A stretch of DNA of 64,000 bases, from NCBI RefSeq assembly GCF_002897035.1, contig NZ_BAUX01000003.1:124001-188000 (forward strand), written 5' to 3'. The stretch is from Methylopila sp. Yamaguchi. GTDB taxonomy: Bacteria; Pseudomonadota; Alphaproteobacteria; Rhizobiales; Methylopilaceae. The first letter of the stretch is position 1, and the number at the start of each line of letters is the position of its first letter. The notes beneath the pieces were generated by a model, which was given only the letters and a program-made list of their open reading frames with translations, made no database searches and had not been told where the DNA came from. Made by a program: the position numbers and the translations under genes. Positions 49,029 to 64,000 of this stretch are shown piece after piece.

Positions 49029-49105
49029 GGCGGAGTAGCTCAGCTGGTTAGAGCAGCGGAATCATAATCCGCGTGTCGGGGGTTCGAGTCCCTCCTCCGC
49101 TACCA
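49029..49105 (+). tRNA. tRNA-Met (anticodon CAT)
   Basis: A 77-base tRNA with encoded CCA. Acceptor arms ggcggag (49029-49035) and ctccgct (3' end) pair with one G-T. The D-arm is gctcagctggttagagc, the anticodon arm gcgga-atcataa-tccgc places CAT at 34-36, and the T-arm is cgggggttcgagtccctc. The body matches the elongator-Met form rather than initiator tRNA. It is the left border of the accessory region: the reading frame of the integrase remnant runs into it from the other strand. Confidence 0.93.
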
Positions 49106-49638
49106 ATTGACTTTACAGCGCTTTTTCCTGTTTCAGAGTCAGTGTAGCACGCCCCGGTTGGGCGGCTAATTGCGAATCCCTCGCTCGCTTCGTAAGCTTC
49201 GCGCTTCTGAATTGCCGATCTGGCGAGGGCAGAATCTCGTCGCAGATCGTGGGCGTCGAGGATCTTCCCGACGTCATTCATGCTGTGACCCGTGATCGTC
49301 GCGATCTCCGCTTCGGAGCATCCTGCAAGCGCCAGCCGCGTGACGGCCGTGCCGCGAAGATCGTGAAACGTCACCCCATTGATTCCGTCTCGCTTCACCG
49401 CTGTGCGCCACGACGCGCGAAACCCGGTTTCCGTCCAGAGCTTGCCGGCCTCGGTCGTGAGAATTGTCCGTCCCTTTCGGGGCGCCGCGTCGAGTAGAGC
49501 TTTCAGCGGCTCCCCGATGGGAATCCAGACGCGAACGCCAGTCTTGCCCTGCTTCAGCGTGATCCGCTCCCCGTCATAGGCGGACCAGGGAAGGCGCAGG
49601 AGATCGCCTTGCCGCTGTCCGGTCCAGAGCGCCATCAT
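49048..49638 (-). pseudogene. Tyrosine recombinase (integrase), N-terminally truncated, catalytic Tyr replaced
   Basis: The 196-residue frame is the C-terminal catalytic half of a phage-type integrase. It has the first Arg in ALWTGQRQGDLLRLPWSAYD, the HxxR box in FHDLRGTAVTRLALAG and the following His in ATITGHSMNDVGKILDA. At the nucleophile position, where relatives read HYL, this reads HDLRRD (codon gat), so cleavage activity should be lost. The N-terminal core-binding domain is missing; a fragment of another gene starts at about 49641. The C-terminal residues (GSGGGTRTPDTRIMIPLL) are encoded by the tRNA gene, as is typical for integrases of elements inserted at a tRNA 3' end. Confidence 0.88.
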
Positions 49639-50048: not shown

Positions 50049-51008
50049 TCAGGCGGCGCGCGCCTCGTCGGCCGTGCAGGCCAAGCATATCTGCTCGACA
50101 TGGCGATGGTCGGTGCCGCAGCAGCCGCCGAGCACGGTGAACTGTCCGTACCGCCGACGTATATCGCGGTACTCGCGCCCGAGCTCGCCCGGATCGCCAG
50201 CGTCAAGATCAGGGGATGCGTCGAGCTCGGCATGACTGCGCTTCGATGCGTTGGCGCGCAGCCCACGCAGCCGCTGAATCCACGCTCCGTCCGTTTCAAA
50301 AGCCTGGGTGAAATGAGTGGGGTGGGCGCAGTTGATCTCGAAATAGGCTGCGGCCCCGCCGGTCGCGTCGTCGATGGCGGCCACCGCGTCACGGAGCGAC
50401 ATACCGGTCGCCAGCCGGCCGTCGGTTTCGAGAGTAAACGAGATCGCGACCGGCATTCCGGCCTCAGTCGCCGCCCGAACGATGCCGATCGCCTCAGCCG
50501 CATATGACAGCGTGAAGGCCGCGACCATGTCCGCGTCGCTCGCCGCGAACGAGGCGATCTGGGCTGAATGATAGGCTTGCGCCTCCTCGACCGACATCAT
50601 GTCGTCCGGGCGATAGCCATCGCCCCTTGGGCCGATCGTCCCGCTGATCACCATCGGTGAGGCGGGCGTCTCGAAACGCTCCCGCAACCTGATGAGCATC
50701 TCGATTGAGCGACGGTTCACCACGTCAAGCGCCGCCGCGTTGTAGCCAAGCTTTTCGCCCCAATCCCGATTTGCGCGCCATGTCGGAGTGTCGAGGATGA
50801 AGCCTAGACCCGAGCCCCGCGCGATCTCGGCGAATCGCGCGCATTCCTCCGCAAGCCGTGCCTCGCCATCTTCCGCATCCATGAGGATGAAAGCGGCGAA
50901 GTAAGGCAACTCCACGCCCTGGTGAAAAATGAGCGTGGTCTCTAATCCCCCTGCCGTGAGAAACAGTTTGTCGGAAAGCTGAGGAAGAGCGCCTTTGTAT
51001 TTAGCCAT
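50049..51008 (-). CDS. Homocysteine S-methyltransferase family protein
   Basis: This 319-residue TIM-barrel protein has FLTAGGLETTLIFHQGVELP near the N-terminus and GTIGPRGDGYRPDDMMSVEE. The zinc-binding Cys are present: one in YFEINCAHPTHFTQAF and the pair in TVLGGCCGTDHRHVEQICLA. Relatives transfer a methyl group from S-methylmethionine or betaine-like donors to homocysteine (MmuM type); the methyl donor here is unknown. It is probably cotranscribed with the upstream methyltransferase gene (34-base gap). It is intact, unlike much of its surroundings. Confidence 0.88.
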   Translation of the reverse strand: MAKYKGALPQLSDKLFLTAGGLETTLIFHQGVELPYFAAFILMDAEDGEARLAEECARFAEIARGSGLGFILDTPTWRANRDWGEKLGYNAAALDVVNRRSIEMLIRLRERFETPASPMVISGTIGPRGDGYRPDDMMSVEEAQAYHSAQIASFAASDADMVAAFTLSYAAEAIGIVRAATEAGMPVAISFTLETDGRLATGMSLRDAVAAIDDATGGAAAYFEINCAHPTHFTQAFETDGAWIQRLRGLRANASKRSHAELDASPDLDAGDPGELGREYRDIRRRYGQFTVLGGCCGTDHRHVEQICLACTADEARAA

Positions 51009-51042
51009 GACTTTGACCCATCGTGATGGATAACGTTATGAA

Positions 51043-51864
51043 TCATCGGGTGATGACGATTTCCGCGTAGTCTGAGGCGATGCGCGCCGAGCTGTCGCGC
51101 GTCGTGTCGAAGCGCGCGATCGTTGCGAGCAGGTCGCGTTCAAGCTCGGCCTGGCCTGCGCGATCCAAGGCCAGGAACGCCTTGTGGACCGGGCCGTAGA
51201 AGGTGCGGAAAACGTCCACGAACTGCTCGGGAGAGCGGTAGCGGAACAGGAAGGTCCGGCGTTCGATTGCGATTGAACGCGCGCGGGCGGCGAAGGTCTT
51301 CTCGATCCAGTCGCTGGAGCCCCAGAGCGCCGGCGAGTTGACGCCCCCCGGCGGGGGAACGTGCTTGCCGATCGTCTTGAACACCTGCCCGATGAAGCTT
51401 TCCGGCGTCCAGTTGGCGAGGCCGATCCGGCCGCCGGGCCGGCAAACGCGGAGGAGTTCGCTTGCCGCCCGGGCCTGGTCGGGGGCGAACATCACGCCAA
51501 AGGTCGAGACCACGGCGTCAAAACTCCCGTTGGCGAAGGGCAGCGCTTCGGCGTCCGCCTCGCGGAAGGCGACGTCATAGCCCTCGGCGGCCGCGCGTTC
51601 ACGGGCGCGGTCGAGCAAAGCCGGAACGTAATCGGTGGCAACCACCTCGCAGCCCCTCCGCGCGAAGGCGAGCGTCGCGTTGCCGTTGCCAGCCGCGACG
51701 TCGAGGACTTTGGCGCCCGATGGGAGGTCCACCGCCTCGGCGAGGGTTTCGCCGACGATCTGGAGGGTGGCGCCGACAACGGCGTAGTCTCCGGAGGCCC
51801 AGGCGGCCTGCTGGCGTTGCTTGATCGTCGCGTAGTCGGCCGCAACCAATGTACAGTTCATCAC
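51043..51864 (-). CDS. Class I SAM-dependent methyltransferase
   Basis: This 273-residue protein has the SAM-binding motif I SGAKVLDVAAGNGNATLAFA (about 49-68), the acidic loop VVATDYVPALLDRARERAAA and motif IV in FDAVVSTFGVMFAPDQARAA. It belongs to the UbiE/COQ5-like methyltransferase group and the substrate cannot be predicted. The start may be the second Met. It is divergent from the AraC-type gene, with the homocysteine methyltransferase gene downstream. SAM use here and homocysteine recycling next door suggest one methyl-cycle unit. Confidence 0.87.
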   Translation of the reverse strand: MMNCTLVAADYATIKQRQQAAWASGDYAVVGATLQIVGETLAEAVDLPSGAKVLDVAAGNGNATLAFARRGCEVVATDYVPALLDRARERAAAEGYDVAFREADAEALPFANGSFDAVVSTFGVMFAPDQARAASELLRVCRPGGRIGLANWTPESFIGQVFKTIGKHVPPPGGVNSPALWGSSDWIEKTFAARARSIAIERRTFLFRYRSPEQFVDVFRTFYGPVHKAFLALDRAGQAELERDLLATIARFDTTRDSSARIASDYAEIVITR

Positions 51865-52066
51865 CAGTCACTCCTCTGATAATCTGACGGGCGCGCTGTC
51901 GCTCACGCTCATGACCCGCGCGCGGCGGTCAGAGGGGTCGGGGGAAGCGGGGAAGCCGGCGACCGGCTACTGTCCGCGGCCGATGGATTACTCCGGGCCG
52001 TCTGCCGGACGAATGATCGCGCCGCCGGATCACTTGACCGTTCGTCCATATCTGGAGGACGCCCCC

Positions 52067-53053
52067 GTGACGGATCCGCTTGCGGAGGTGCTCCGGTCGG
52101 TTCGTTTGACGGGCGGCGTCTTTCTCGACGTCCGGATGACGGCGCCGTGGTGCGTGCTGTCGCAGCTCACGCCGGAGGACGTGACGCCGTTTCTGGCGAC
52201 GCCCGCCCAGTTGATCTCGTATCACTGCGTCATCGATGGGCGGATGCTTGTCACCGTGGAGGGCGAGCCCGACATGGAGGTGCGCGCCGGGGAGGTCGTG
52301 CTCCTGCCCCGCAACGACGCCCACATCCTGGCGAGCGCGGCTGGCCTCGCCGCCGTGAACGCGCACGAGCTGATCCAGCCGTCAGCCGATGGCGGGCTGG
52401 CGCAGGCCTCCCACGGCGGCGGCGGCGAGCCGACCAACATGGTGTGCGGCTTTCTCGCAAGCGACGATCTCTACAACCCGCTGTTCGCCGCGCTGCCCCG
52501 ACTGCTGAAGCTCGACATCCGTGAGGGCGCGTCGCGTGACTGGGTCGAGGCTTCGGTTCGGTTCGCCGCGGGCCAACTGACGCAAGGAAAGCTCGCCTCG
52601 TCCGGAGTCATGTCGCGGCTCTCAGAGCTGCTTCTGACCGAGGCGGTGCGCGAATATGCGGCCACGCTTGAAGCTCATAACACCGGTTGGCTGAGGGGCC
52701 TCGCTGATCCCCATGTCGGCAGAGCGCTCGCGCTCATACACGGCAAGCTGAGCGCGCCATGGTCGACTGAGACCTTGGCCAAGGAAGTGGCGTTGTCGCA
52801 TAGCGCCTTTGTCGAGCGCTTCACGCGGCTCGTGGGCGTGCCGCCGATGCGCTACGTCATCAACTGGCGCCTGCAAACTACCAAGCTGAACCTGCAGGAG
52901 ACCCGCGCTTCGATCGCCAACCTCGCCCATTCGGTTGGATACGAATCCGAGGAGGCTTTCAGTCGTGCGTTCAAGCGCGAATTCGGCTTAGCGCCTGCGC
53001 AATGGCGTGCTCGCCAAATAGCGACGCGCGACGGGGCAAGCGTGGCGAACTAG
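52067..53053 (+). CDS. AraC-family transcriptional regulator with cupin N-terminal domain
   Basis: This 328-residue protein has an N-terminal AraC_binding-type cupin domain (TPAQLISYHCVIDGRMLVTV, then EVRAGEVVLLPRNDAHILAS). The C-terminal double HTH spans about 225-320 (WSTETLAKEVALSHSAFVER and ASIANLAHSVGYESEEAFSR then AFKREFGLAPAQWRARQ). I chose the GTG at 52067 because CTGGAGGA lies just upstream; longer starts exist in frame. It is divergent from the methyltransferase-homocysteine methyltransferase pair, which it probably controls. Confidence 0.88.
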   Translation: MTDPLAEVLRSVRLTGGVFLDVRMTAPWCVLSQLTPEDVTPFLATPAQLISYHCVIDGRMLVTVEGEPDMEVRAGEVVLLPRNDAHILASAAGLAAVNAHELIQPSADGGLAQASHGGGGEPTNMVCGFLASDDLYNPLFAALPRLLKLDIREGASRDWVEASVRFAAGQLTQGKLASSGVMSRLSELLLTEAVREYAATLEAHNTGWLRGLADPHVGRALALIHGKLSAPWSTETLAKEVALSHSAFVERFTRLVGVPPMRYVINWRLQTTKLNLQETRASIANLAHSVGYESEEAFSRAFKREFGLAPAQWRARQIATRDGASVAN

Positions 53054-53411: not shown

Positions 53412-54365
53412 ATGAAGGTCCCGCCTATACCTGCATCGTTCTTTGGGTCGGTGCTCGGTCTCTCCGGGCTCGGCGGGAGCTGGCGCGCCGCCCATGACGC
53501 CTGGGGCCTGCCGGTCTGGCCCGGCGAGGCGCTCTATGCCGCTGCCGGGGTCGTCTGGCTTGCACTGGTCGCGCTCTATGCCGCCAAATGGGTGAACGCA
53601 CGCGCTGCCTCGATCGAAGAGGCGCTCCACCCGGTCCAGTGCTGCTTCATCGGCCTCGTGGGCGTCGCCACGATGCTGGTCGGGGCCGGCGCCCTGCCGC
53701 ATTCGAGGCCGCTGGCGATCGTCCTGATGGCGGCTGGCGGCCTGTTCACGCTGGGCTTTGCGGTCTGGCGCACGGGCGGGCTCTGGCAGGGGGGACGCGA
53801 TCCCGCGACCACCACGCCGGTTCTGTATCTGCCGACTGTCGCAGGCAGTTTCGTCTCCGCGGCCTCGCTCGGCGCTCTAGGATATCCGGACTGGGGACAG
53901 GCCTTCTTCGGCGGGGGCCTGTTCTCGTGGCTCGCGATCGAATCCGTGCTGATCCACCGCCTGCTGACGGCCGATCCGTTGCCGCCGCCGTTGCGACCGA
54001 CGCTTGGCATCCAGCTCGCGCCAGCCCCTGTCGGGGCGCTTGCCTATCTCTCCGTGACGCAGGGACCGCCCGACGTTCTCGCCCACGCGCTTCTCGGATA
54101 CGGCGTCCTGCAGGCGCTGGTTCTTATCCGGCTCCTGTCCTGGATCATGAAGCAGCCCTTCGCGCCGTCCTACTGGGCCTTCACCTTCGGCGCGACCGCG
54201 CTTGCGTCGACGGCTTTGAAGCTCGTCGCACGCGGCGACACAGGCCCCGCGGCCGCGATCGCGCCTGTGCTGTTCGTGGCGGCGAACTTGGTGGTCTGCT
54301 ACGTGTCGATCCGATCCACGATGCTTTTCCTGCAGTCTGCACGCCGGACGCCCGCGGCTGTCTGA
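53412..54365 (+). CDS. TehA/SLAC1-family (TDT) membrane transporter
   Basis: This 317-residue membrane protein has about ten hydrophobic helices. It starts MKVPPIPASFFGSVLGLSGL, the typical start of TehA-like anion channels, and has FSWLAIESVLIHRLLTADPL, QLAPAPVGALAYLSVTQGPP and APSYWAFTFGATALASTALK. The family includes tellurite-resistance TehA, C4-dicarboxylate carriers and SLAC1 anion channels; the substrate is uncertain. It appears intact. Confidence 0.85.
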   Translation: MKVPPIPASFFGSVLGLSGLGGSWRAAHDAWGLPVWPGEALYAAAGVVWLALVALYAAKWVNARAASIEEALHPVQCCFIGLVGVATMLVGAGALPHSRPLAIVLMAAGGLFTLGFAVWRTGGLWQGGRDPATTTPVLYLPTVAGSFVSAASLGALGYPDWGQAFFGGGLFSWLAIESVLIHRLLTADPLPPPLRPTLGIQLAPAPVGALAYLSVTQGPPDVLAHALLGYGVLQALVLIRLLSWIMKQPFAPSYWAFTFGATALASTALKLVARGDTGPAAAIAPVLFVAANLVVCYVSIRSTMLFLQSARRTPAAV

Positions 54366-54588: not shown

Positions 54589-54864
54589 CTAGTGTTCGAC
54601 GAAATGCCCAAGCGCAGCCAAGTCGTCCAGTCTACCGAGGCCGGCTTGTTTGAAGCCCTCTTTCTCAGTCCCGTCGTAGACCTTCGCCCAATCGATGATC
54701 CAGACGGAGCCGGCGTTCGCAGCCTGGGCGGCGCGCAGCGATCGGTCCACTTCGCGGGTCCAGATGCTCGCCGCCAGCCCGTACTCATTGTCATTGGCGG
54801 GCCGGATCGCATCGTCTCCAGCACAGGAAGGGCCGCGTAGATATCGGCGTGGTTGAAGACGCTC
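54589..54864 (-). pseudogene. C-terminal fragment of an aldehyde dehydrogenase
   Basis: The leftward frame reads DDAIRPANDNEYGLAASIWT, then REVDRSLRAAQAANAGSVWI and EGFKQAGLGRLDDLAALGHF. This is the last ~80 residues of the aldehyde dehydrogenase superfamily (relatives read GGYKQSGxGR near the end). The active-site Cys and cofactor domain are missing. The upstream end (GPSCAGDDAI, where relatives read GPVLxVxxF) is degraded. It is continuous with a degenerate IS3 orfA upstream, which suggests the insertion broke the gene. Confidence 0.8.
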
Positions 54865-54929
54865 ATGGGCGTCTTCCCGCGACCTCATGCCAACCCGCTT
54901 CAGATGTTTCGCGCCCGCGCCGCTGATCG

Positions 54930-55169
54930 GCGGCCGGTGCGCGTCGAGACGGTCGCGACATCCATCGGCTATGTCGTATATTTTTTCCGAGCGCCTCGCC
55001 TTCAGTCGTCGGGCGTCCGACACTTCCATGCCGCCGTGACGCGAACGTCGGGTGTAGATCGTCGCGTCACTCATCCCGTGCTTCCGGCAGACTTCGGCGA
55101 AAGGCAATCCAGCCTGCTGCTCCAAAGTATGCCGATGATCTGCTTCTCGCGGAACCAGCTCTTCTTCAT
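54930..55169 (-). mobile_element. IS3-family orfA (transposase HTH protein) remnant, frameshifted
   Basis: The start reads MKKSWFREKQIIGIL and, after a single-base shift near 55120, continues EQQAGLPFAEVCRKHGMSDA and TIYTRRSRHGGMEVSDARRL. This matches the OrfA N-terminus of IS3-family elements (MKKSRFTEEQI...SDATFYTW...). The rest of orfA and the whole of orfB are absent. A coding-like tail after RRLKA is not recognised. It is a dead IS fragment in the decayed part of the island. Confidence 0.82.
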
Positions 55170-55409: not shown

Positions 55410-56393
55410 CTAAGGAACCAGGACGGCGGCGCCGTAAACTCGGCCTGCACGAAGATCGTCAAGCGCCTGGTTGGCACGCTCGAGCGGATAACGCTTGGTG
55501 ACTGTTCGGACGCCGGCCATCGGAGCGATCGCTAAAAACTCCGCAGCGTCCTGGCGGGTCAGGTTGGCGACCGACAGCACCGCTCGTTCTCCCCAGAGCA
55601 GCCGGTAGGGAAAGCGAGGCAGGTCTGTCATATGGATCCCCCCACAGACCACGCGCCCTCCTTTGCGCACCGTCTTGAGCGCAACAGGCACAAGCGCCCC
55701 GACCGGCGCGAAGACGATTGCGGCGTCCAGTTCCTGCGGACAGCTGTCTTCGGAGGCGCCGGCCCATTTGGCGCCAAGCGATAGGGCAAGATCCTGCGCC
55801 GCTTTATCGCCAGACCGAGTGAACGCGAAGACGTCGCGATGCTGCCAGACGCAGACTTGGGCAAGAATATGAGCCGCGGCTCCGAAACCAAACAGCCCTA
55901 TCCGTCGGGCGTCGCCGGCCATGCGCAGCGATCGCCAGCCGATAAGCCCGGCGCACATAAGGGGCGCGGCGGCGACGGGATCGTCGTAGCCCGCGAGCGA
56001 AAAGGCGAAGTCGGACCTGACGATCGCGTGCGTCGCAAATCCGCCGTCGCGGGTGTAGCCTGTAAAAGTTGGATCGTCGCAGAGGTTTTCGCGTCCGCTC
56101 GCGCAGTAGCCGCAAGCGCCGCAGACGCCGCCCAGCCAAGGAACGCCAACGCGATCGCCGAGGCGTCGGTCCGCAACGCCTTGCCCCAGCGCTTCGATCC
56201 TTCCGACGATCTCGTGCCCCGGCGTGATTGGGACTGGCCCTTTCGTCAAATCGCCATCGACGACATGAAGGTCGGTGCGGCAAACGGCGCACGCCTCGAT
56301 CTGGACCAGGAGTTCGCCGAACGAGGGGCTTGGCGTCTGCCGCTCTTCGAGCGCGAGTGAGGCTCCGCGAACTCGCAGGACCATCGCCTTCAT
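55410..56393 (-). CDS. Zinc-dependent alcohol dehydrogenase
   Basis: This 327-residue medium-chain dehydrogenase has the catalytic zinc site CAVCRTDLHVVDGD (Cys37) and TPGHEIVGRIEALG. The structural zinc Cys are in GVCGACGYCASGRENLC, and PLMCAGLIGWRSLRMAG holds the third catalytic ligand. The NAD(P) loop RIGLFGFGAAAHILAQV follows. The substrate is probably a small alcohol or aldehyde. The start overlaps the PhoU-like gene stop (ATGA), so it is the last gene of phasin-phoU-like-adh. The operon has an FNR-type box upstream of the phasin. Confidence 0.92.
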   Translation of the reverse strand: MKAMVLRVRGASLALEERQTPSPSFGELLVQIEACAVCRTDLHVVDGDLTKGPVPITPGHEIVGRIEALGQGVADRRLGDRVGVPWLGGVCGACGYCASGRENLCDDPTFTGYTRDGGFATHAIVRSDFAFSLAGYDDPVAAAPLMCAGLIGWRSLRMAGDARRIGLFGFGAAAHILAQVCVWQHRDVFAFTRSGDKAAQDLALSLGAKWAGASEDSCPQELDAAIVFAPVGALVPVALKTVRKGGRVVCGGIHMTDLPRFPYRLLWGERAVLSVANLTRQDAAEFLAIAPMAGVRTVTKRYPLERANQALDDLRAGRVYGAAVLVP

Positions 56394-57109
56394 GCCGCTT
56401 CGCCGACGTGCCGCCCGGCTGGTCTGGCGGCTTGGTCCGCTATCCATTTTTCTCGCCCGGTCTTCATGAAGACCACTGCGTCGGCGATCGACGTTGCGTA
56501 AGCGGAAATCCGTTGCATGCTCCTCGCGCACGCCAGAGCGTCGACCACAGTGTACATGGTGCGAGGAGTAAGCCTCAGCATCCGCACTGCGGAGAAGAGA
56601 ACTTCGGCCCGGGCCATTCTGACCGCGCGGTCCCTTTCAAACAGGGTGCGAGCGAGACCTGGATCAAAGCTGCGCAGGGCGCCGCCGGCGATTTGCAATT
56701 GATTTGCTGTCAGTGCCAACAGCGCTGCGTATGTCCTCTCCGACTCAGGCAATTCCGGGAGCAGCTTCGCCAACTGCGGGCGCGACGCGATCTCCATCCA
56801 GAGGTCAGCTATCCGTTTGTAGGCGTCAGCAATTTCAAGAGATGCGACGATGGCCCGCGCATCGCCAGGCGAAGGCTCCCGTTGGGCCAAAAGCGTGAGC
56901 GCGAAGTCGACGCAATCTCGCTCCGCCTCGCTTATCCGCTTCCGGCTTTCGGCGGACCGCGCGCTCTCGAGGACGCGGCCTTCGAGAAAGGCGCGAGTTC
57001 CATGCGTGACCAATTTTTCCACGGCGCCACCGATGCAGGCGACGCGGTTGGTCAGTTCGGCAGTCGGATCGGCCAAGGAGTTCATGGTGCGGCTTATAGC
57101 GAAGGCCAC
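56390..57109 (-). CDS. PhoU-like domain protein
   Basis: This 239-residue all-helical protein has the PhoU pattern of paired helical repeats: DFALTLLAQREPSPGDARAI followed by VASLEIADAYKRIADLWMEI. The usual PhoU metal-cluster EExxD motifs are only partly visible (AERDCVDFAL). PhoU regulates phosphate uptake with PstSCAB-PhoR; no pst genes are near, so here it may act elsewhere. It overlaps the adh gene by four bases and lies six bases after the phasin gene, which strongly suggests one transcript. Confidence 0.75.
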   Translation of the reverse strand: MAFAISRTMNSLADPTAELTNRVACIGGAVEKLVTHGTRAFLEGRVLESARSAESRKRISEAERDCVDFALTLLAQREPSPGDARAIVASLEIADAYKRIADLWMEIASRPQLAKLLPELPESERTYAALLALTANQLQIAGGALRSFDPGLARTLFERDRAVRMARAEVLFSAVRMLRLTPRTMYTVVDALACARSMQRISAYATSIADAVVFMKTGREKWIADQAARPAGRHVGEAA

Positions 57110-57115
57110 TAGACC

Positions 57116-57448
57116 TCATGCTGCCTTGGCTTGTTCCGTTGACTTGTCACGAACCTTTTGGACGATCGCTTCGGCTTCGCGACCATATTCCTCCATGGTG
57201 CGCTGCATGAAGCTTGACTGCTTTTCGAAGGCTTGGGCGGGATCCTTACAGGTCAGTAGGTTGGAGAGAAACTCCGCCTGCGCCTCCAAGCGTCGGCTCC
57301 CGAAATGCAACGCTTCGATCGTAAACGCAGTGGAAGCCGACAGCATGGATCGCCACGCGCCAAAGGCGAGCTTGGGCGAGAGCATGTCGGCGAAAGGCGG
57401 CGCGGAGCCATTGCTCGCGGTTGAACGGATTGTTTCGCTTGTCGGCAT
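57116..57448 (-). CDS. Phasin-family protein
   Basis: This 110-residue helical protein has phasin features: PKLAFGAWRSMLSASTAFTI, EALHFGSRRLEAQAEFLSNL and CKDPAQAFEKQSSFMQRTME, then EEYGREAEAIVQ. Phasins coat polyhydroxyalkanoate granules. The start is preceded by a perfect AGGAGG, and an FNR-type box lies 70 bases upstream. The next gene upstream on the same strand is PHA synthase, which supports a storage-granule role. Confidence 0.88.
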   Translation of the reverse strand: MPTSETIRSTASNGSAPPFADMLSPKLAFGAWRSMLSASTAFTIEALHFGSRRLEAQAEFLSNLLTCKDPAQAFEKQSSFMQRTMEEYGREAEAIVQKVRDKSTEQAKAA

Positions 57449-57517
57449 ATGAGCCTCCTGTGACGCTCGGCGGATCGCTGAGGGCGCTCATCGTGGGGGC
57501 CTGTCGAAGCGAGGTCT

Positions 57518-57531
57518 TTGATCAGGATCAA
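57518..57531. promoter_or_regulatory. FNR/FixK-type box upstream of the phasin operon
   Basis: ttgat-cagg-atcaa is an exact match to the TTGAT-N4-ATCAA consensus bound by FNR, Anr and FixK-type regulators. Its centre is 76 bases from the phasin ATG; a class II promoter (box at -41.5) would start near 57483 and give a leader of about 35 bases. The site lies in the gap between phaC and the phasin. Confidence 0.75.
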
Positions 57532-57614
57532 GATCGGTTGACCGCCGAGCTTGGCTTCAAGGCGCATCTGGCCGGCAGTGTTGGATAGCTCGCGTCAACC
57601 GAAGCTATTGGGTG

Positions 57615-59435
57615 TCACCGTTCCAGAACGTAGGCCCCAGGCGCCGGCGCAAGGCTTTCCCGCGGCGCGCGCGCAGCCGCGTGCCCAGACGAGTGCGTTT
57701 TCATCCAGTCGGACCAGAGCGGCCACCATGAGCCATCTCTTGCTTCGTGAGACGAGCGCCAGTCATCCGGATCCCGATATGGGTCCTCCCGCGTCGCGGT
57801 GCCGATGCGAGCATAGACGCCTTTATCCTGACCGGGCGCCGAGACCACGCCGCGATTATGGCCACCGGAGACGAGAGCGAACGTGACCTCGGTGTCGGTC
57901 AGGAGATTGATCTTGTAGACCGAACGCCATGGGGCGACGTGATCGCGCTCTGTACCGAGCGCGAAGATCGGCGTGCGGATATCTCCCAAGGCGATTGGCC
58001 GTCCATCGACCGTAAACCGCCCCTCGGCGAGGTCGTTCTGAAGAAAAAGGCCGCGCAAATACTCGCCATGCATGCGGGCGGGCATGCGCGTAGCGTCCGC
58101 ATTCCAAGCCGAGATGTCGGTCATGGGCGTCCGTTCGCCAAGCAGATAGTCTCGGACGACTCGAGACCAGATAAGGTCGTTTGACCGCAACATCTGGAAG
58201 GCGCCCGCCATCTGTCGGGCTTCCAAAACGCCCTCGATCGACATCACGTCCTCAAGGAAGCGGACCTGGGCTTCGTCGATAAACAGCGTCAGTTCGCCCG
58301 CTTCCGTGAAGTCGACCTGGGATGCGATCAACGTAAGCGACGCCAGTCTCTCGTCGCCGTCGCGCGCCATGGCTGCCGCGCCGATGGCGAGCAGCGTTCC
58401 CCCAAGACAATAGCCTGCGGCGTGAACTCTTTCGCCAGGCGCCACGGTGTCGATCGCGTCAAGCGCGGCGGCGAGGCCGAGGCGGAGATAGTCCGCGATC
58501 CCGCGGTTCGCGTCTCCGCCGTCCGGATTGTTCCACGAAATCATGAAGACGGTGAAGCCCGAGCCAACCAGATGACGAACCAGGGAATGGGTCATCGAAA
58601 GGTCGAGGACATAGTATTTCATAATCCACGCCGGAACGATCAGCAGCGGTTCGGCCGCCACTGTGGGCGTCGTCGGCGCATATTGAATGAGTTCAATCAG
58701 TTCGTTTCGAAGGATCACCTCACCCGGGGTGGTTGCGACGTCCCGGCCGACCACAAAGTCTTCCGCCCCCACCGGGGGCTTGCCTGCAACCAGTCTTGAC
58801 CAGTCTTCGTAGAGGTTTTGCAATCCCGCGTGTAGATTTTCACCGCTGCTCTCCAGCGTCGCCTTCAAGACGATCGGATTGGTCGTGACATAATTCGACG
58901 GCGCCGCCATATCGAGAAGCTGACGCGCTGCGAAGGCCACCATCTCCTGGTGATGTGACGACACGCCGGCGACGTCGTTGGTGGCGTTGTGCCACCACTG
59001 CTGCTGAAGCTGGAATGCCTGAAAATAAAAACTGAAGGGCAAACGACGCCATGCAGGGTCGGCGAACCGCCTGTCTTGCGGCAATGGCTGAATACAAAGC
59101 TCAGCGTCCGGATTACTTGCTGATCGTAGCATGAAATCGACTAGCTTCAGCGACTTCCGCAGGGCTTTGTCGACCAGGGCGATCTGCTTGCCAGGCGAGC
59201 CCGAAAGATGGAGGGCCCAGTCGAACCAAGCCTCCGCCAAGCCGGCTGGAGAGAGGCCGCCGGTCAACCGCGCAAGGCCTGCGTTGAGCGAGCGATCGAT
59301 CGTCGCGCCCAACGCCGTCATGACAGGCAAATTTTCGGTCTCCGCGATCCGACGCGTCGGCGGGCTAAGATCCGGCGGCGGGGGCGCTCGGCGCGCGGCC
59401 TTCAAATTCAGCGGAGCAAGCGCGAGGTTTGTCAT
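57615..59435 (-). CDS. phaC: Poly(3-hydroxyalkanoate) synthase
   Basis: This 606-residue protein is of the class I PHA synthase type. The lipase-like box is HAAGYCLGGTLLAIG with catalytic Cys near 340, catalytic Asp in GTERDHVAPWRSVYKI (about 497) and catalytic His in VSGGHNRGVVSAPG (about 525). The N-terminal PhaC domain starts near residue 80, and the first ~45 residues form a Pro-rich extension. It polymerises hydroxyacyl-CoA to PHA granules. An FNR-type box is 45 bases upstream of the ATG, so the start at 59435 is close to the likely transcription start; a Met at residue 39 is an alternative. Confidence 0.95.
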   Translation of the reverse strand: MTNLALAPLNLKAARRAPPPPDLSPPTRRIAETENLPVMTALGATIDRSLNAGLARLTGGLSPAGLAEAWFDWALHLSGSPGKQIALVDKALRKSLKLVDFMLRSASNPDAELCIQPLPQDRRFADPAWRRLPFSFYFQAFQLQQQWWHNATNDVAGVSSHHQEMVAFAARQLLDMAAPSNYVTTNPIVLKATLESSGENLHAGLQNLYEDWSRLVAGKPPVGAEDFVVGRDVATTPGEVILRNELIELIQYAPTTPTVAAEPLLIVPAWIMKYYVLDLSMTHSLVRHLVGSGFTVFMISWNNPDGGDANRGIADYLRLGLAAALDAIDTVAPGERVHAAGYCLGGTLLAIGAAAMARDGDERLASLTLIASQVDFTEAGELTLFIDEAQVRFLEDVMSIEGVLEARQMAGAFQMLRSNDLIWSRVVRDYLLGERTPMTDISAWNADATRMPARMHGEYLRGLFLQNDLAEGRFTVDGRPIALGDIRTPIFALGTERDHVAPWRSVYKINLLTDTEVTFALVSGGHNRGVVSAPGQDKGVYARIGTATREDPYRDPDDWRSSHEARDGSWWPLWSDWMKTHSSGHAAARAPRESLAPAPGAYVLER

Positions 59436-59479
59436 GGGGCCCCCCGTCGCTCATGAACGCAAATGCCGCCGTTTCATCA

Positions 59480-59493
59480 TTGATGTGAATCAA
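59480..59493. promoter_or_regulatory. FNR/FixK-type box upstream of phaC
   Basis: ttgat-gtga-atcaa is an exact TTGAT-N4-ATCAA match with its centre about 51 bases from the phaC ATG. It is the second perfect box in this 2-kb interval, on the upstream side of a gene that would be expected in an oxygen-limited storage response. Confidence 0.75.
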
Positions 59494-59594
59494 CGGCGAG
59501 GCAGAACGCCTGTGTCGGGGAGATATCGTCCGCATCCGGATGTGGTCGGACTTGGCGCCTTAGCCGCTATGCCGCTTTGGGCGTTCCGCGAGTT

Positions 59595-59975
59595 CGCCCC
59601 TGACTTTCTCCGGGGCGTTCCAGCTTCTCCGCACTTCCCCGGAGCCTCAATGTTTGGCCGTCTTCGGCGCCAGACGGGATCATGATGTTGAGCAAGCCTC
59701 AATCGGGAAGGGCGATCCGGGGCGGCGCTCCGCTCACGGCTTCCAGGAAGGAGATCTAGAGGGTGTAACGCTTGCGATAGCCGCCCGATGGGGCCTGGGC
59801 ATGGCCAGAAGCGTCGATCTAACCGCGATCGAAGCTGGCGCGCCTGTCGGAGGCGGCCAGGATCTCGTGAGCGGCGGAAGCGGCCTTGAATTGCTCTTCG
59901 GCCTTCGCGTTGCCCGAATTGAGGTTGGGATGATGTTTTTTCGCGAGCGTTCGGAAGGCCTTCCGAAGTCACGGT
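59595..59975 (-). pseudogene. DnaJ (J-domain protein) remnant with in-frame stops
   Basis: One leftward frame reads KAFRTLAKKHHPNLNSGNAK, then FKAASAAHEILAASDRRASF and DRG, a stop (where relatives have Glu), IDASGHAQAPSGGYRKRYTL, a stop, ISFLEAVSGAPPRIALPD, a stop, and IMIPSGAEDGQTLRLRGSAE. These are the J-domain (with the HPN form of HPD) and the substrate-binding domain of a DnaJ/CbpA-type chaperone, all in one phase, with three in-frame stops. The first J-helix and the C-terminus are missing. It is clearly dead. Confidence 0.85.
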
Positions 59976-60031
59976 GCGTGTCCATTGGGGTCTTGCGCTG
60001 CGATCGAAGGCAGGCCCGAGCGGACACTACA

Positions 60032-60045
60032 TTGAGCGAAATCAA
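60032..60045. promoter_or_regulatory. Near-consensus FNR/FixK-type box upstream of the ATPase
   Basis: ttgag-cgaa-atcaa matches nine of ten fixed positions of TTGAT-N4-ATCAA. It is 81 bases upstream of the ATG at 60126 and would give a leader of about 46 bases from a class II promoter. Weaker than the two perfect boxes but at the matching position. Confidence 0.45.
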
Positions 60046-60125
60046 AGCCGCCCGGTCAGCTTGGTTGCTTTTGGTTTGCTCCGGCGCTGGGGGTGATTCC
60101 GGAGAGCGCACCTGGAAACTTGATC

Positions 60126-62739
60126 ATGGCAGCGTCCATACCGAAGCATTGCGACTTCGCCTCCGATCAGGTGTCCAAGACATCGGCCGCCGCCGAGCCG
60201 GACCCGCCGTTCTGGACGAAGCGCCTCGACAGCACCCTGACGCGGCTGGCCGCAACGGCGTCGGGTCTCTCCACCACCGAGGCAGCGCGTCGTATCGACC
60301 TTTACGGCCCCAACGAGGCGCGCGCTCAGGTTCGCTCGAGGGTCCTCGGCAAGGTGGTGACGCGACTGTCGCAGCCGCTCGTCGCGCTCTTGCTGATTGC
60401 GGGCGTCTTGGCCGGAGCGCTGGGCGATGTTTCGAGCAGCGCGATCATCGCCGGGGTGGTGGTGATGTCGATCACCTTGGAGATCTGGCAGGAGCATAAG
60501 GCGGAGACGGCAGCCGAAGAGCTGAAGAGCTCGGTGGCGCTCAATGCAGCCGTGTTGCGGGATGGAACGCTTCAGCGGATCGCGGTCAACCGTCTCGTTC
60601 CTGGCGACGTGGTCGAGTTGAGGGCTGGCGACCTGACGCCTGCCGACGGCCTCATTATCTCGGCACAAAATATTCTCGTTGATGAGGCGGCGCTAACCGG
60701 CGAGCCATACCCCGTTCACAAGCGTCCTGGCTCAAACATGGCCTCCTCGATCGGGGACGCGGTGAACGCCTTGTTCGCAGGCTCGATCGTAATCAGCGGC
60801 TCTAGCCGGATGGTTGTTGCGAAGACCGGAGCGGCCACCGTCTTCGGCGGAGTCGCCGAGGCCCTTTCGTCCGATGAGCTGCCGACCACCCTCGATCGCG
60901 GGCTCGGCGAGCTTGGGCGTCTCCTCATCAAAATGACGCTGTTCCTCTCGTTTTTCGTAGTCCTCGCGCAGCTGACGGCGCATCGGCCGGCGCTTGAAGC
61001 CTTTTTGTTCGCGCTGGCCCTCGCGGTTGGCTTGACCCCGGAACTGCTGCCGATGGTGACAACCGTCACATTGTCCCGCGGCGCCGTACGAATGGCGAAG
61101 CGCGGCGTCGTCGCAAAAAAGCTGTCCGCGATCCACGACCTTGGAGCGTTGAATGTTCTGTGCACCGATAAGACTGGAACGCTGACGGACGCCAGGGTTG
61201 CGCTTACCTCTTACGTCAACGCGGAAGGCGCTACGAGCGCTGAGGTGCTCGTCCTCGCCGGGCTCAATGCAAGCCTTACGACGGGGGCGCGCTCTCCGCT
61301 TGACGATGCTATCGCGGCGGTTGCGCCACCGCCCACCAATGCATGCCTCATCGCAGAGGCGCCTTTCGATTTCGAACGCCGCCGCGCGTCGGTGCTCGTC
61401 GATCGAACCGGGAACGGATGATTGTCACGAAAGGCGCGCCGGAAGCGATGCTTGACGTCTGCGGACGGATGACGAAAGGAGCGAGCATAATTCCGCTCGA
61501 CGAGCTGGAGCGGAGGCGCATTCTGGCCTTCGTCGAAATGAAGGCGTCCGAGGGACTACGCTGCTTGGCCGTCGCCGTTCGGGCCGCCGACCTCAATGCG
61601 CAAGCGCTCACTACGGACGATGAGCGCGATCTTTTGTTGGCCGGCTTCTGCTTCTTCGCCGACCCCATCAAAGCGTCCGCTGGAAATGCGATCGCGCGGC
61701 TTGCGCAACAGGGTGTGCGCGTCAAAATTCTGTCGGGAGATTCGCCCGCTGTCGTCGCGCATGTGGCGCGAGGGGTTGGCATCGACGCCGCTAGGGTGTT
61801 GACCGGAGCCGAGATCGCGAAAATGTCGGAGTCGGCGTTGGGCGTTATCGTCCAGCAGGTCGATCTGTTCGCCCGGCTCGCGCCCGGCCAAAAAGTCGCG
61901 GTCGTCCGCGCTCTGACAGCGACAGGGTCGACCGTCGGCTTCATGGGCGACGGGATCAACGATGCGGCGGCGATCAAGGTCGCGGACGCCGGCATCTCGG
62001 TTGACAGCGCGACCGATGTCGCCCGCGCCGCCGCTGACTTGATCCTGCTGCAGCCTGATCTCCGCGTGCTGTCGGATGGAGTAGAGGAAGGGCGGCGCAC
62101 CCACGCAAACATCCTGAAATACGTTCGGATGGCGATGGCGTCTAACTTCGGAAACATGGTCTCGATGGCGATTGCCTCGGCCGTCTTGCCCTTCCTTCCA
62201 CTGTCACCGGTCCAAGTTCTGCTGAACAACATGATCTACGACGTCAGTGAAGCGGGCATCCCGTTCGACAGGGTGGATGAGATTGAAACGCGTGAACCTC
62301 ATGTCTGGGACATCAGGCAGATCTATCGCTTCATGCTTGTTATGGGGCCCCTATCGTCGGCGTTCGACATTGCGACCTTCGTCATACTAAGGTCTGCGTT
62401 TAGTGCGGACGTTCTCACTTTCCAGACAGGGTGGTTTTTTGAGTCGACGATCACTCAGATACTCGTGGTTTTGTAATTCGCAGCACCTCGCCTCTTTGGC
62501 TCAGCCGGCCTCATACGATCTTAATCACGACCTCGTCTGGCGCGATCTTGGTGGCTTGCGCGCTCGCGCTGACGCCGATCGGCCACGTTTTCGGCTTCGA
62601 TATGCTGCCGCCGATTATCGTCGTTGCGATGTTGGCGGTCAGTCTTGCGTACCTCGCCGCGGCTGAGCTTGCGAAGATCCAGTTCCGACGGCGGGATTTG
62701 ACGTTTCAACGCGGTGGACTGAACGGCGAAGCCATCTGA
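60126..62739 (+). pseudogene. P3B-type (MgtA-like) cation-translocating P-type ATPase, split by two frameshifts
   Basis: Three consecutive frames join into one protein of about 870 residues. The first (60126-61421) holds the N-terminal domain, the LVDEAALTGEPYPVHKRPGS motif, ALAVGLTPELLPMVTTVTLS and the phosphorylation site LNVLCTDKTGTLTDARV. The second (about 61420-62476) holds MIVTKGAPEAML, VKILSGDSP and GFMGDGINDAAAIKVADAGI. The third (about 62476-62739) holds the last helices (LVACALALTPIGHVFGFDML) and the tail. Each join fits one missing base (near 61418 and 62474). The family pumps Mg2+ inward. Sequencing error is possible, but two independent deletions make a pseudogene likely. Confidence 0.85.
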
Positions 62740-62740
62740 T

Positions 62741-63163
62741 TCATCTGCATTGCTTTAAGCAGCTCTGAAAGACTGGCGCTAGGCTGCTAACGCATTCGGC
62801 GATGCTCTCGTGTGGCCCCGATTTTTGCGCCCCGCACTGAGGGGCGAGCCACGCGCTGCACGACTGCCGGCACCGCTCCTCGATCGCCTTTGCGCGGGCG
62901 CGTTGATCAATTGTGCCCGAATTGAAATCAGCTTGGTTTAAAACCATCAGGATGACAACGATCAGTGCAAGGACGACAAACGCGCTCAGGCCCAGCGCAA
63001 GAACGCCTCTCTTCTGTGGTCTAGGGTCAAGCCCGACGAGCTCTTCCGGACTGGAAGGCATGTCCCGAGAATGGTGTGAACCGCTCTCACCGAACGGAAG
63101 TCCGCTTTCGCCGATAGGCGCGAGGTCCGTCGACTGCGCCGAGGGACCTCGCAGCAGCGACAT
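62741..63163 (-). CDS. Small membrane protein with Cys-rich C-terminal domain, unknown function
   Basis: This 140-residue protein has a disordered polar N-terminus (1-50), one membrane helix (about 54-76, LALGLSAFVVLALIVVILMV) and a C-terminal domain with six Cys: RCRQSCSAWLAPQCGAQK, then ECVSSLAPVFQSCLKQCR. The Cys spacing suggests disulfides or metal binding on the periplasmic side. It begins directly after the Hsp20 stop (no gap), so the two are cotranscribed. I recognise no family. Confidence 0.7.
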   Translation of the reverse strand: MSLLRGPSAQSTDLAPIGESGLPFGESGSHHSRDMPSSPEELVGLDPRPQKRGVLALGLSAFVVLALIVVILMVLNQADFNSGTIDQRARAKAIEERCRQSCSAWLAPQCGAQKSGPHESIAECVSSLAPVFQSCLKQCR

Positions 63164-63658
63164 CTAAGCTTCCGCCTTGATCTCGATCTTTTTCAGCTGC
63201 TTCGCTTCCTTCGTCTTGGGCAGGCGGATTGTCAGGACGCCATGGCGATGGTTGGCCTCGATCTGACCGGCGTCGACGTCGTCCGGGAGCAGGAAGCTTC
63301 GACGAAACGAGCCAAAGGTGCGCTCCGAGATGTGGGCTCCTCCCTCAGTTCTCTCGTTCTCGCGCGATTTCTCGCCCTTAATGACAAGCATGTTGCTCGC
63401 AACCGACACATCAACCTGCGACGGTTCCAGCCCAGGAACTTCCGCCATAACTTTGTATTCGCCATCCGTCTCCACGATGTCGATCGCCGGCGCAAAACCA
63501 TTCTGCACGCCCGCGCGTTCAACGATGCGCTCGATGGCCGGGAGTTCGATCGCGGAGGACATCCTATCGAACAGGCGATCGAAATCCCGCATCAGATGCC
63601 GGCGCACGGGCGCCGAATTGGAATCTGGACTCTGAGTCTCGATGAGTTCCTTTGACAT
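63164..63658 (-). CDS. Hsp20/alpha-crystallin small heat-shock protein
   Basis: This 164-residue holdase chaperone has an alpha-crystallin domain at about 50-155: APAIDIVETDGEYKVMAEVP, GLEPSQVDVSVASNMLVIKG, SERTFGSFRRSFLLPDDVDA and the closing NHRHGVLTIRLPKTKEAK. The N-terminal arm is moderately acidic. The ATG at 63658 follows AGGAG. It is upstream of the Cys-rich membrane gene and downstream of the BON gene on the same strand. Confidence 0.94.
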   Translation of the reverse strand: MSKELIETQSPDSNSAPVRRHLMRDFDRLFDRMSSAIELPAIERIVERAGVQNGFAPAIDIVETDGEYKVMAEVPGLEPSQVDVSVASNMLVIKGEKSRENERTEGGAHISERTFGSFRRSFLLPDDVDAGQIEANHRHGVLTIRLPKTKEAKQLKKIEIKAEA

Positions 63659-63763
63659 GGCGCGCTCCTGCTGTTTGCATTTCGTTGCGCAAATCGCCCG
63701 ATGCCTGCTGCAGTGTGCTCCGGACCACACGGGCGTCATGCGGTCCGGGGCATCCGCGGCGGA

Positions 63764-64000
63764 TTAAGCAGCGACGCTGATGGCGTCGTCGACGGACTTG
63801 ACGCCGGGAGCCGACCAAGCGGCCTGCTCGGCGATGCGGCGCTCCTGCCAGCTGTGGACCCGGCCGGTCAGGCTCACCTTGTCGTTTGCGACGGTGACAT
63901 GGATCGCGGCGGCGTCCAGCGCGGCGTTGCGCTTCAGCGCGTCCTCAATCTTCTTCTGCACGTCAGCGGCCTTTGGTCGGTCCTTGAGCGCGATGGTATT
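63764..64000 (-). CDS. BON-domain protein, C-terminal part (cut by window edge)
   Basis: The frame runs off the right end. Its last ~79 residues read NTIALKDRPKAADVQKKIED, then LKRNAALDAAAIHVTVANDK and VSLTGRVHSWQERRIAEQAA, ending SVDDAISVAA. This is a BON domain (periplasmic/membrane-binding, as in OsmY-like proteins), and the preceding residues suggest another BON domain upstream. The neighbouring gene is Hsp20, and BON proteins are typical companions in stress islands. Confidence 0.88.
   Translation of the reverse strand, partial: NTIALKDRPKAADVQKKIEDALKRNAALDAAAIHVTVANDKVSLTGRVHSWQERRIAEQAAWSAPGVKSVDDAISVAA

Follow-up and report, generated by a model that had tools for sequence, protein, structure and literature searches.

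A predicted FNR/FixK-controlled low-oxygen survival island with a second zeta-type ATPase inhibitor in Methylopila sp. Yamaguchi

Background

Among the closest described systems is FixLJ-FixK2 of Bradyrhizobium diazoefficiens, in which FixK2 boxes stand before phaC2 (TTGATGCAGCTCAA, -81), hspC2 (TTGAGCAAAATCAA, -86), a universal stress protein (USP) gene and other stress genes, and in which FixK2 activation of phaC2, hspC2 and ppsA has been validated by in vitro transcription (PMC9104804). Genes induced there by microoxia include the CRP/FNR gene bll6060, the GNAT gene bll6068, the USP gene bll6069, phaC2 (bll6073) and the CBS gene blr6074 (PMC6515984). We describe a comparable locus in Methylopila sp. 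Yamaguchi, whose genome assembly comprises 4,421,505 bases (4.42 Mb) in 39 contigs. The window, which is the whole stretch of DNA that was analysed, is 64,000 nucleotides long (contig 3:124001-188000), and positions without a contig or locus label refer to it. Its stretch 57116-62739 carries TTGAT-N4-ATCAA palindromes of the FNR/FixK type near genes for a phasin, a PhoU-like protein, an alcohol dehydrogenase and a polyhydroxyalkanoate (PHA) synthase, PhaC. A cation P-type ATPase, a carbon-storage synthase, USPs and an Hsp20-type chaperone are likewise under one hypoxia regulator in the DosR regulon of Mycobacterium tuberculosis. However, the DosR regulator family and binding site are different ones and the boxes here are of the FNR type, so that the likeness is an analogy of content and not one of homology.

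Other relatives show further parts of the same picture. A chromatin immunoprecipitation peak for FnrL of Rhodobacter sphaeroides with the box TTGAGcaagATCAA lies at phbC-fabI, uspA belongs to the core FNR regulon, and Hsp20, cytochrome c and zinc alcohol dehydrogenase are predicted FixK targets (PMC2908626). In Herbaspirillum seropedicae, Fnr1 directly controls dksA-phaC2-fabI and phaC1, Fnr3 controls the most abundant phasin and adhA, and both co-activate two uspA genes (PMC5934665). In Rhizobium leguminosarum an anaerobox precedes an Hsp20 gene whose approximately 50-fold microaerobic induction needs FnrN (PMC11784457). FNR/FixK control of a storage synthase, phasin, Hsp20, USP and alcohol dehydrogenase is established in relatives, and this known part mainly confirms the earlier reading of the site. 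A further comparative study of alphaproteobacterial oxygen regulons (PMC4999443) does not use the terms universal stress, Hsp20 or polyhydroxy in its main text.

The present locus also differs from these systems. Neither a second zeta-type ATPase inhibitor nor a phasin-PhoU-like-alcohol dehydrogenase operon turned up in the parts of the Bradyrhizobium accounts consulted; moreover, a cysteine-bearing FNR is encoded in the module here and part of the block is a tRNA-linked island. The FnrL peaks of R. sphaeroides that are tabulated are scattered over the genome, whereas many targets here are grouped in one block or two, the regulator being encoded in one of these. Unlike the R. leguminosarum gene, hsp20 here has no adjoining box with zero or one mismatch. 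As far as our searches go, what is new is the presence of a second zeta and a PhoU-like protein in boxed operons and the packing of these operons with a regulator.

Results and discussion

Boxes in the window and in the genome

The most likely interpretation of this locus is a low-oxygen survival kit because the block has the same control boxes as known FNR/FixK regulons. We consider it highly probable, judging from the sequence, that the stretch belongs to a low-oxygen survival island, of which it is the part inside the window, and that in this island several operons are activated by an FNR-type regulator or FixK. A first-pass annotation of this DNA had placed exact TTGAT-N4-ATCAA boxes at 57518-57531 and 59480-59493 and a box matching nine of the ten fixed bases at 60032-60045. 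All three are where it put them, and together they make up all the sites with zero or one mismatch in the window, which bears out its statement that there is no further exact match. No strand is assigned to them. The centre of the first is 76.5 bp from the phasin start codon and that of the second 51.5 bp from the phaC start codon; the degenerate one, the weakest of the three, is upstream of a cation ATPase remnant, about 88 bp from its likely ATG. The expectation that such boxes should be rare by chance was also correct, since dinucleotide shuffles of the window gave 0.23 expected sites with zero or one mismatch against the three observed and none of 100 shuffles gave three or more.

The whole-genome scan that had been suggested then was carried out and gave nine exact sites against none for the reversed pattern, and 76 sites with at most one mismatch against 8, coding and non-coding sites pooled. 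Seven of the nine exact sites are in two clusters, the island in the window and a block on contig 11. Four lie within 12 kb (contig 3:181518-193670) and three within 10 kb (contig 11:145381-155290), the latter cluster including the boxed gene of an FNR-type regulator. Across 13 genus genomes the exact sites number 35, with none of the reversed pattern. Palindromes above the chance level are found, then, upstream of several operons.

The module extends beyond 57116-62739. To the right of the window, where gene calls were made with a simple codon-based script, come the rest of a BON-domain gene, a zinc alcohol dehydrogenase gene, an exact box and then usp1 (a USP gene), the gene for a zeta-type ATPase inhibitor, a cytochrome c gene and a YeeE-type pair. 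Farther right is another exact box before a second USP gene, usp2. The contig 11 block has, with boxes, a usp2 copy, a P2A-like cation ATPase, a further USP that was named by similarity only, fnr, an acyl-CoA ligase and another USP. The ligase is of the ADP-forming type, scores below the curated score and has an acetyltransferase domain. The phasin, phaC, adh, PhoU-like, hsp20, BON, USP, zeta, fnr, P2A-like ATPase and acyl-CoA ligase genes are stop-free in this genome.

The two usp2 copies, L024:9962-10804 on contig 3 and L026:1865-2707 on contig 11, are 98% identical, and an exact box lies at a distance of about 300 bp from each. They may have recombined with each other and so divided a block that in the sister genome G142 is mostly in one piece. 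Two genes that adjoin the usp1-zeta box and are divergent from that operon, L024:6087-6587 and L024:6605-6901, have products with no Pfam or NCBIfam match; the 166-residue one has relatives near phaC outside the genus too, at 41-48% identity.

Conservation and spacing of the boxes

The same operons are boxed, with zero or one mismatch, in the sister genomes G142, G193 and G252. A box precedes usp1-zeta in all three and is exact in each; usp3 is also boxed in all three, with the ligase gene following usp3 in G142 and G252. The phasin gene has an exact box in G142 and G252, at 76.5 bp in G142 as here, PhoU-adh has one in G193, and phaC has one in G142 (one mismatch, 53.5 bp) and G193. A box before fnr is found in G252, G193, G250 and G076. 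Boxes with zero or one mismatch persist in G252 and G193, where the bases that follow them are not those of this genome.

Spacing was determined for 34 box-gene pairs, a set hand-picked from the maps and not including every box, in which each of two boxes is shared by a pair of divergent genes. The box centre is 51.5-77.5 bp from an ATG in 23 of the 34 pairs. In the other 11, two boxes lie inside or past the start that was used, three of the usp2 type are at about 300-320 bp, one in G250 is at 179.5 bp, and for the remaining five, including the ATPase remnant and hemN, the start codon was wrongly placed. At class II FNR promoters the activator site is near -41.5, and a spacing of 51.5-77.5 bp suits activation from such a position.

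Most genes of both clusters are in one block of about 19 kb in G142 (2198874-2217865). A search of 60 kb of G142 gave no Hsp20, BON, P3B ATPase or 140-residue protein (described below), and of the zinc alcohol dehydrogenase gene the block retains the end only. Four genes, fnr, phaC, the PhoU-like gene and the P2A-like ATPase gene, are interrupted there (L150, G142:C1:2205615-2214115), and the YeeE-type gene has a stop near its end; these interruptions are either decay or sequence error. The G142 boxes at phaC, at the phasin gene and in the gap between the ATPase and USP genes are retained despite the interrupted genes, and usp1, zeta, phasin, adh, the ligase and three further USP genes are without stops. 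In G193 and G252 all 18 aligned orthologue stretches are stop-free, the PhoU match in G252 covering only 90 of 239 residues.

Boxes at related phaC genes in other Proteobacteria

Upstream regions of homologues of the island PhaC subfamily were scanned over 380 bp ending 20 bp before the aligned start. The 110 loci, 30 from the order and 80 named ones, were the best-scoring and not a random set; the order loci include this genome and G142, and one locus without a box (L053 = L121) is in both sets. A box with zero or one mismatch was found at 31 of the 110 loci (13/30 and 18/80, this genome counted). Six control palindromes each gave 0/30 and 0/80, random windows gave 2.4%, and the housekeeping phaC1 type had a box at 2 of 20 loci with 700 bp searched. 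The neighbourhoods also differ: at least two of USP, P-type ATPase, alcohol dehydrogenase, Hsp20, FNR and acyl-CoA ligase were present at 25 of 100 PhaC2 loci and at none of 40 controls. These loci were up to about 22 kb long; two genomes of this genus, G193 and G170, are in the PhaC2 set, in which one locus is counted twice (L191, L121, without a module gene), and the controls were 20 loci around phaC1 and 20 arbitrary positions.

Candidate regulators

The absence of any FNR/FixK-type regulator would have spoken against the first-pass annotation. A boxed FNR-type gene is present, as are FixL-, FixJ- and FixK-like genes. The genome has 14 HTH_Crp_2 matches, of which 11 are above the cut-off. 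An exact box stands 77.5 bp upstream of the start of the FNR-type gene, which is on contig 11 (L026:7866-8636). The product of this gene, which we call the island FNR, has an ETVSR recognition helix and a CxxC-x7-C arrangement with a fourth cysteine. In an alignment with solved FNR three of the four coincide with its cysteines, while the third cysteine is displaced by two residues; all four are retained in the full-length orthologues compared. They are candidate cluster ligands, and an ExxSR helix is the family's reader of TTGAT. The closest solved relatives are FixK2 and FNR, and in NCBIfam FnrL ranks first, below its curated score. The FixK-like protein and a third regulator have the ETVSR helix too.

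On contig 3 a FixL-like kinase (NF041777, 568 bits, cut-off 850), a FixJ-like response regulator recognised by its domains, and a FixK-like protein (NF050806, 230 bits, cut-off 300) are encoded consecutively. Boxes with one mismatch stand immediately before hemN and cydA, which are near fixLJ-fixK, so that these two core targets are boxed.

Genes of the boxed operons in the window

The gene identities given in the first-pass annotation, that is, adh, PhoU domain, phasin, PhaC and a cation ATPase, were confirmed. The phasin gene (Phasin_2, 57116-57448, minus strand; PF09361, E 5.3e-09) heads the phasin-phoU-adh operon, and its product is 90% identical to that of G142 and 50% to that of G252. 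It is followed by the gene for a divergent PhoU-domain protein (56390-57109, minus strand; PF01895, E 1.5e-16), which scores 76.6 bits against the phosphate-signalling PhoU family TIGR02135, short of the cut-off of 130.25. This protein is not widespread, with matches at E<=1e-20 in 3 of 249 order genomes, all of this genus, and a partial 40% match in G252, which is outside that sample; its role in the module is hypothetical. The last gene codes for a zinc-binding alcohol dehydrogenase (adh_fam_2, 55410-56393, minus strand), which reached 320 bits against TIGR02822 (cut-off 283.5) when scored as the longer open reading frame (ORF) 55410-56531 and is 94%, 72% and 80% identical to the island copies of G142, G193 and G252, respectively.

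The second PHA synthase gene, phaC, is at 57615-59435 on the minus strand (PhaC_N, E 2.1e-55) and has the domain make-up of a PHA synthase, PhaC_N with an alpha/beta hydrolase. The Cys, Asp and His of the catalytic triad align with those of solved PhaC. The score against the class I PHA synthase family TIGR01838 is 505 bits, under the cut-off of 622.65, and the protein is a PHA synthase relative. A separate PhaC of the other type, 43% identical to it, is encoded on contig 2.

The cation ATPase gene is broken. It had been counted as a P3B ATPase member of the module, and this was not borne out since positions 22-427 and 428-787 of TIGR01524 are in different frames. The MgtA-like remnant (60093-62476, plus strand) consists of two pieces, 60093-61421 and 61343-62476, with stops read, and two later ORFs that were tested did not supply the last approximately 80 profile positions. 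As a working module member the P3B ATPase is rejected because it is frameshifted; the cation ATPase of the module that reads in a single frame is the P2A-like one on contig 11.

A second zeta-type ATPase inhibitor

Directly downstream of the boxed usp1 is a gene for a second, divergent zeta-type F1-ATPase inhibitor (L024:7595-7915, contig 3:191595-191915). It scores 70.3-70.5 bits against PF07345 (cut-off 25) and matches the zeta structures 2LL0 and 5DN6, and its N-terminal segment aligns with 2LL0, the zeta of Paracoccus. Like Paracoccus denitrificans zeta it has, therefore, the family domain and a similar N-terminal segment; it differs from canonical zeta in being a second paralogue, in a boxed USP operon, with an N-terminus two residues shorter, which is the case in all four second zetas. 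Canonical zeta is present in all 13 genus genomes and the second zeta in four, this one (G000), G142, G193 and G252, in each of which its gene is directly downstream of a boxed usp1. The copy here is about 31% identical to the canonical zeta of this genome and 29-35% to the 13 canonical copies, against 50-78% to the other three second zetas.

A profile was built from the four second zetas themselves, so that their own scores of 179-188 bits are partly by construction. Among 397 genomes of the order, five matched at E<=1e-20, the four source genomes and G104 at 76 bits, with nothing else comparable. The G104 match begins MTTF like canonical zeta, and the ORFs beside it are presumably pur genes. 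Among 385 genomes of the class there were 20 matches at E<=1e-18; besides this genome, 19 genomes scored 69-80 bits with proteins that are taken as canonical zeta, and none of the 19 was comparable either. A wide spread of the second zeta was not found among the order and class genomes sampled.

In Paracoccus zeta the inhibitory domain is said to be in the first 14 residues, whereas Sinorhizobium zeta does not inhibit its own F1 (PMC10469736). Because of the latter, inhibition by the second zeta cannot be assumed. Oxygen-dependent zeta expression in Paracoccus is mentioned as unpublished (PMC9317440), and none of the titles listed from the open-licence literature concerned a hypoxia-controlled zeta paralogue.

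Proposed function

Activation at low oxygen is what we infer from the known FixK2 and FnrL regulons. When oxygen falls, the FNR-type regulator from the contig 11 half of the module would bind the TTGAT-N4-ATCAA boxes, as FixK under FixLJ probably would too. Once bound, the boxes, mostly 51-78 bp before start codons, would activate several operons together, namely phasin-PhoU-like-alcohol dehydrogenase, PHA synthase, USP-zeta-cytochrome c, USP-acyl-CoA ligase and the regulator itself. With their products carbon would be stored as PHA, aldehyde and alcohol would be disposed of and proteins would be protected, and the second zeta may stop ATP synthase from running backwards. PHA synthesis had been put forward as a sink for reducing power; this does not hold as it was written and is a hypothetical role, one option only. 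The FNR/FixK regulon as such is supported, at the level of sequence, by the regulators and by boxes that recur in the sister genomes and at the PhaC subfamily, and the parts of the earlier proposal that did not stand are the P3B ATPase and the redox sink.

More tentatively, we propose that the block is a portable hypoxia-survival cassette. The second zeta, made at low oxygen with USP and cytochrome c, would lock ATP synthase against hydrolysis while carbon is parked in PHA, as an induced bacterial counterpart of IF1 in a DosR-like programme run by FNR/FixK. We would sooner expect this proposal to fail than to hold, though it is a serious possibility, and the action of the second zeta in it is hypothetical. 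Should low oxygen induce the second zeta, and should the protein inhibit ATP synthase, bacteria would be able to switch on protection from ATP hydrolysis by transcription when respiration fails, and an ATP-synthase switch would be joined to carbon storage and stress proteins in one block.

Several observations weigh against the low-oxygen regulon. Two of the nine exact sites are outside the clusters, one inside a lytic transglycosylase ORF on contig 5 and one between convergent genes on contig 10. Both may be chance. Many equally good boxes in coding sequence would have counted against the first-pass annotation; among the exact sites outside the clusters, one is inside an ORF. Exact sites are absent from 5 of the 13 genus genomes, 79 of the 110 PhaC loci are without a box of zero or one mismatch, and at both usp2 copies the box is as far as about 300 bp upstream. 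The one-mismatch box near fixK is at the fixJ end; more than 400 bp separate it from the fixK ORF downstream, and it is perhaps not the fixK promoter. No box with zero to two mismatches was found within 500 bp at the second fnr of G252 or the fnr of G170. The search gave no box at the broken island fnr of G142, where other boxes are intact, and this points to a different reader of the boxes, such as FixK.

Alternative explanations

The boxes could be chance palindromes in island DNA that is richer in A+T, and the lower G+C content does raise the chance somewhat. However, none of the 100 shuffles reached the observed count, none of the six palindromes of equal composition occurred upstream of the 110 phaC loci at zero or one mismatch, and the exact sites in the genus number 35 against 0 for the reversed pattern. 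A chance origin has next to no probability and is rejected by these controls. The boxes could also be relics in an island of decaying mobile DNA without a working regulon in this strain. The broken P3B ATPase, the integrase and transposase remnants and the interrupted fnr, phaC, PhoU-like and P2A-like ATPase genes of G142 are what decay would leave behind. But the module genes of this genome that are named above, from phasin to the acyl-CoA ligase, read stop-free, as do the 18 orthologue stretches of G193 and G252 (PhoU in G252 over 90 of 239 residues), and in these two genomes the boxes persist at zero or one mismatch though the bases that follow differ. We regard relics as improbable.

DNR-type regulators recognise nearly the same palindrome. 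The boxes might, then, be read mainly by a DNR/NnrR-type nitric-oxide sensor and the module might answer nitrosative stress; the 14 HTH_Crp_2 matches, 11 of them above the cut-off, leave room for such a regulator, and among the members of a predicted DNR regulon is, here too, a USP (PMC2908626). Against this, the FNR in the module has candidate cluster cysteines and its own box, the FixLJ-FixK-like genes and the boxes at hemN and cydA point to oxygen, and no denitrification family was found among the island ORFs scanned, which were not every ORF. This explanation is very unlikely, and activation by an FNR-type regulator or FixK at low oxygen remains the reading that we prefer. It is compatible with another role for the second PHA synthase, that of a modulator whose mixed dimers with the main synthase are less active. 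The FixK2-activated PhaC2 of Bradyrhizobium is believed not to be the active synthase there (PMC10888616), less active or inactive PhaC1/PhaC2 mixtures have been proposed (PMC10888616, PMC9049629), and here too a separate PhaC of the other type is encoded on contig 2. Yet Cys, Asp and His of the island PhaC are aligned with those of solved synthases, and loss of Fnr or Anr lowers polyhydroxybutyrate in Herbaspirillum and Pseudomonas extremaustralis (PMC9049629). We consider the modulator role unlikely, if plausible.

The genomic island at tRNA-Met

The tRNA link claimed in the first-pass annotation is well supported for this strain on three grounds: the edge of homology coincides with the tRNA-Met end, an integrase remnant adjoins the tRNA gene, and the G+C content drops. 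The tRNA-Met (CAT) gene, found by ARAGORN at 49029-49105 on the plus strand, is the left edge of an insert of about 29 kb. Homology to G142 stops at its last base (49105) and restarts at C3:202383, beyond the window. The tyrosine integrase remnant (49048-49638, minus strand) is the C-terminal catalytic half (PF00589, E 2.6e-12, profile positions 29-157 of 172), the DNA upstream of it having been translated in three frames. The G+C content is 0.61-0.67 in the island and 0.67-0.73 on its left. A tRNA 3' edge, an integrase, although a remnant, and a different composition are all present. No repeat of the tRNA end of at least 12 bases was found in C3:124001-203000, which reaches about 600 bp past the far edge.

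An empty site was not found in G142, which at the same tRNA has about 28 kb of other DNA (L271-L272, G142:C1:2528971-2557146) without a match of at least 250 bases to the stretches compared, shorter matches having been dropped. The tRNA-Met site looks like an integration hot spot. G142 carries the module elsewhere than at tRNA-Met, and it is well supported that the tRNA link holds in this strain and that the module itself is not tied to tRNA-Met.

Neighbouring genes and other island cargo

Hsp20 and BON genes had been reported beside the module, and this is so. The hsp20 gene is at 63164-63739 on the minus strand (PF00011, E 9.9e-26), and its product is 75% identical in G252, where the gene is beside bon and zadh. 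No box with zero or one mismatch adjoins hsp20, which merely neighbours the boxed operons. The BON-domain gene, with three BON stretches, runs on the minus strand from 63764 to 64000 and on to C3:188411 (PF04972, E 2.8e-47); the protein is 88% identical in G252. At 62741-63163 on the minus strand is the gene for a 140-residue protein without an assigned function or a Pfam or NCBIfam match, the C-terminal part of which is kept in the islands of G193 (59%, residues 86-139) and G252 (58%, residues 79-140).

On the left part of the island, the ORF 54589-55125 fuses a transposase-type helix-turn-helix to the end of an aldehyde dehydrogenase and is a rearrangement scar. A SLAC1 transporter of the TehA type is encoded at 53412-54365 (NF008032, 405 bits). 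Further cargo at 50049-53053 comprises genes for a homocysteine S-methyltransferase, a methyltransferase and an AraC-type regulator with a cupin domain.

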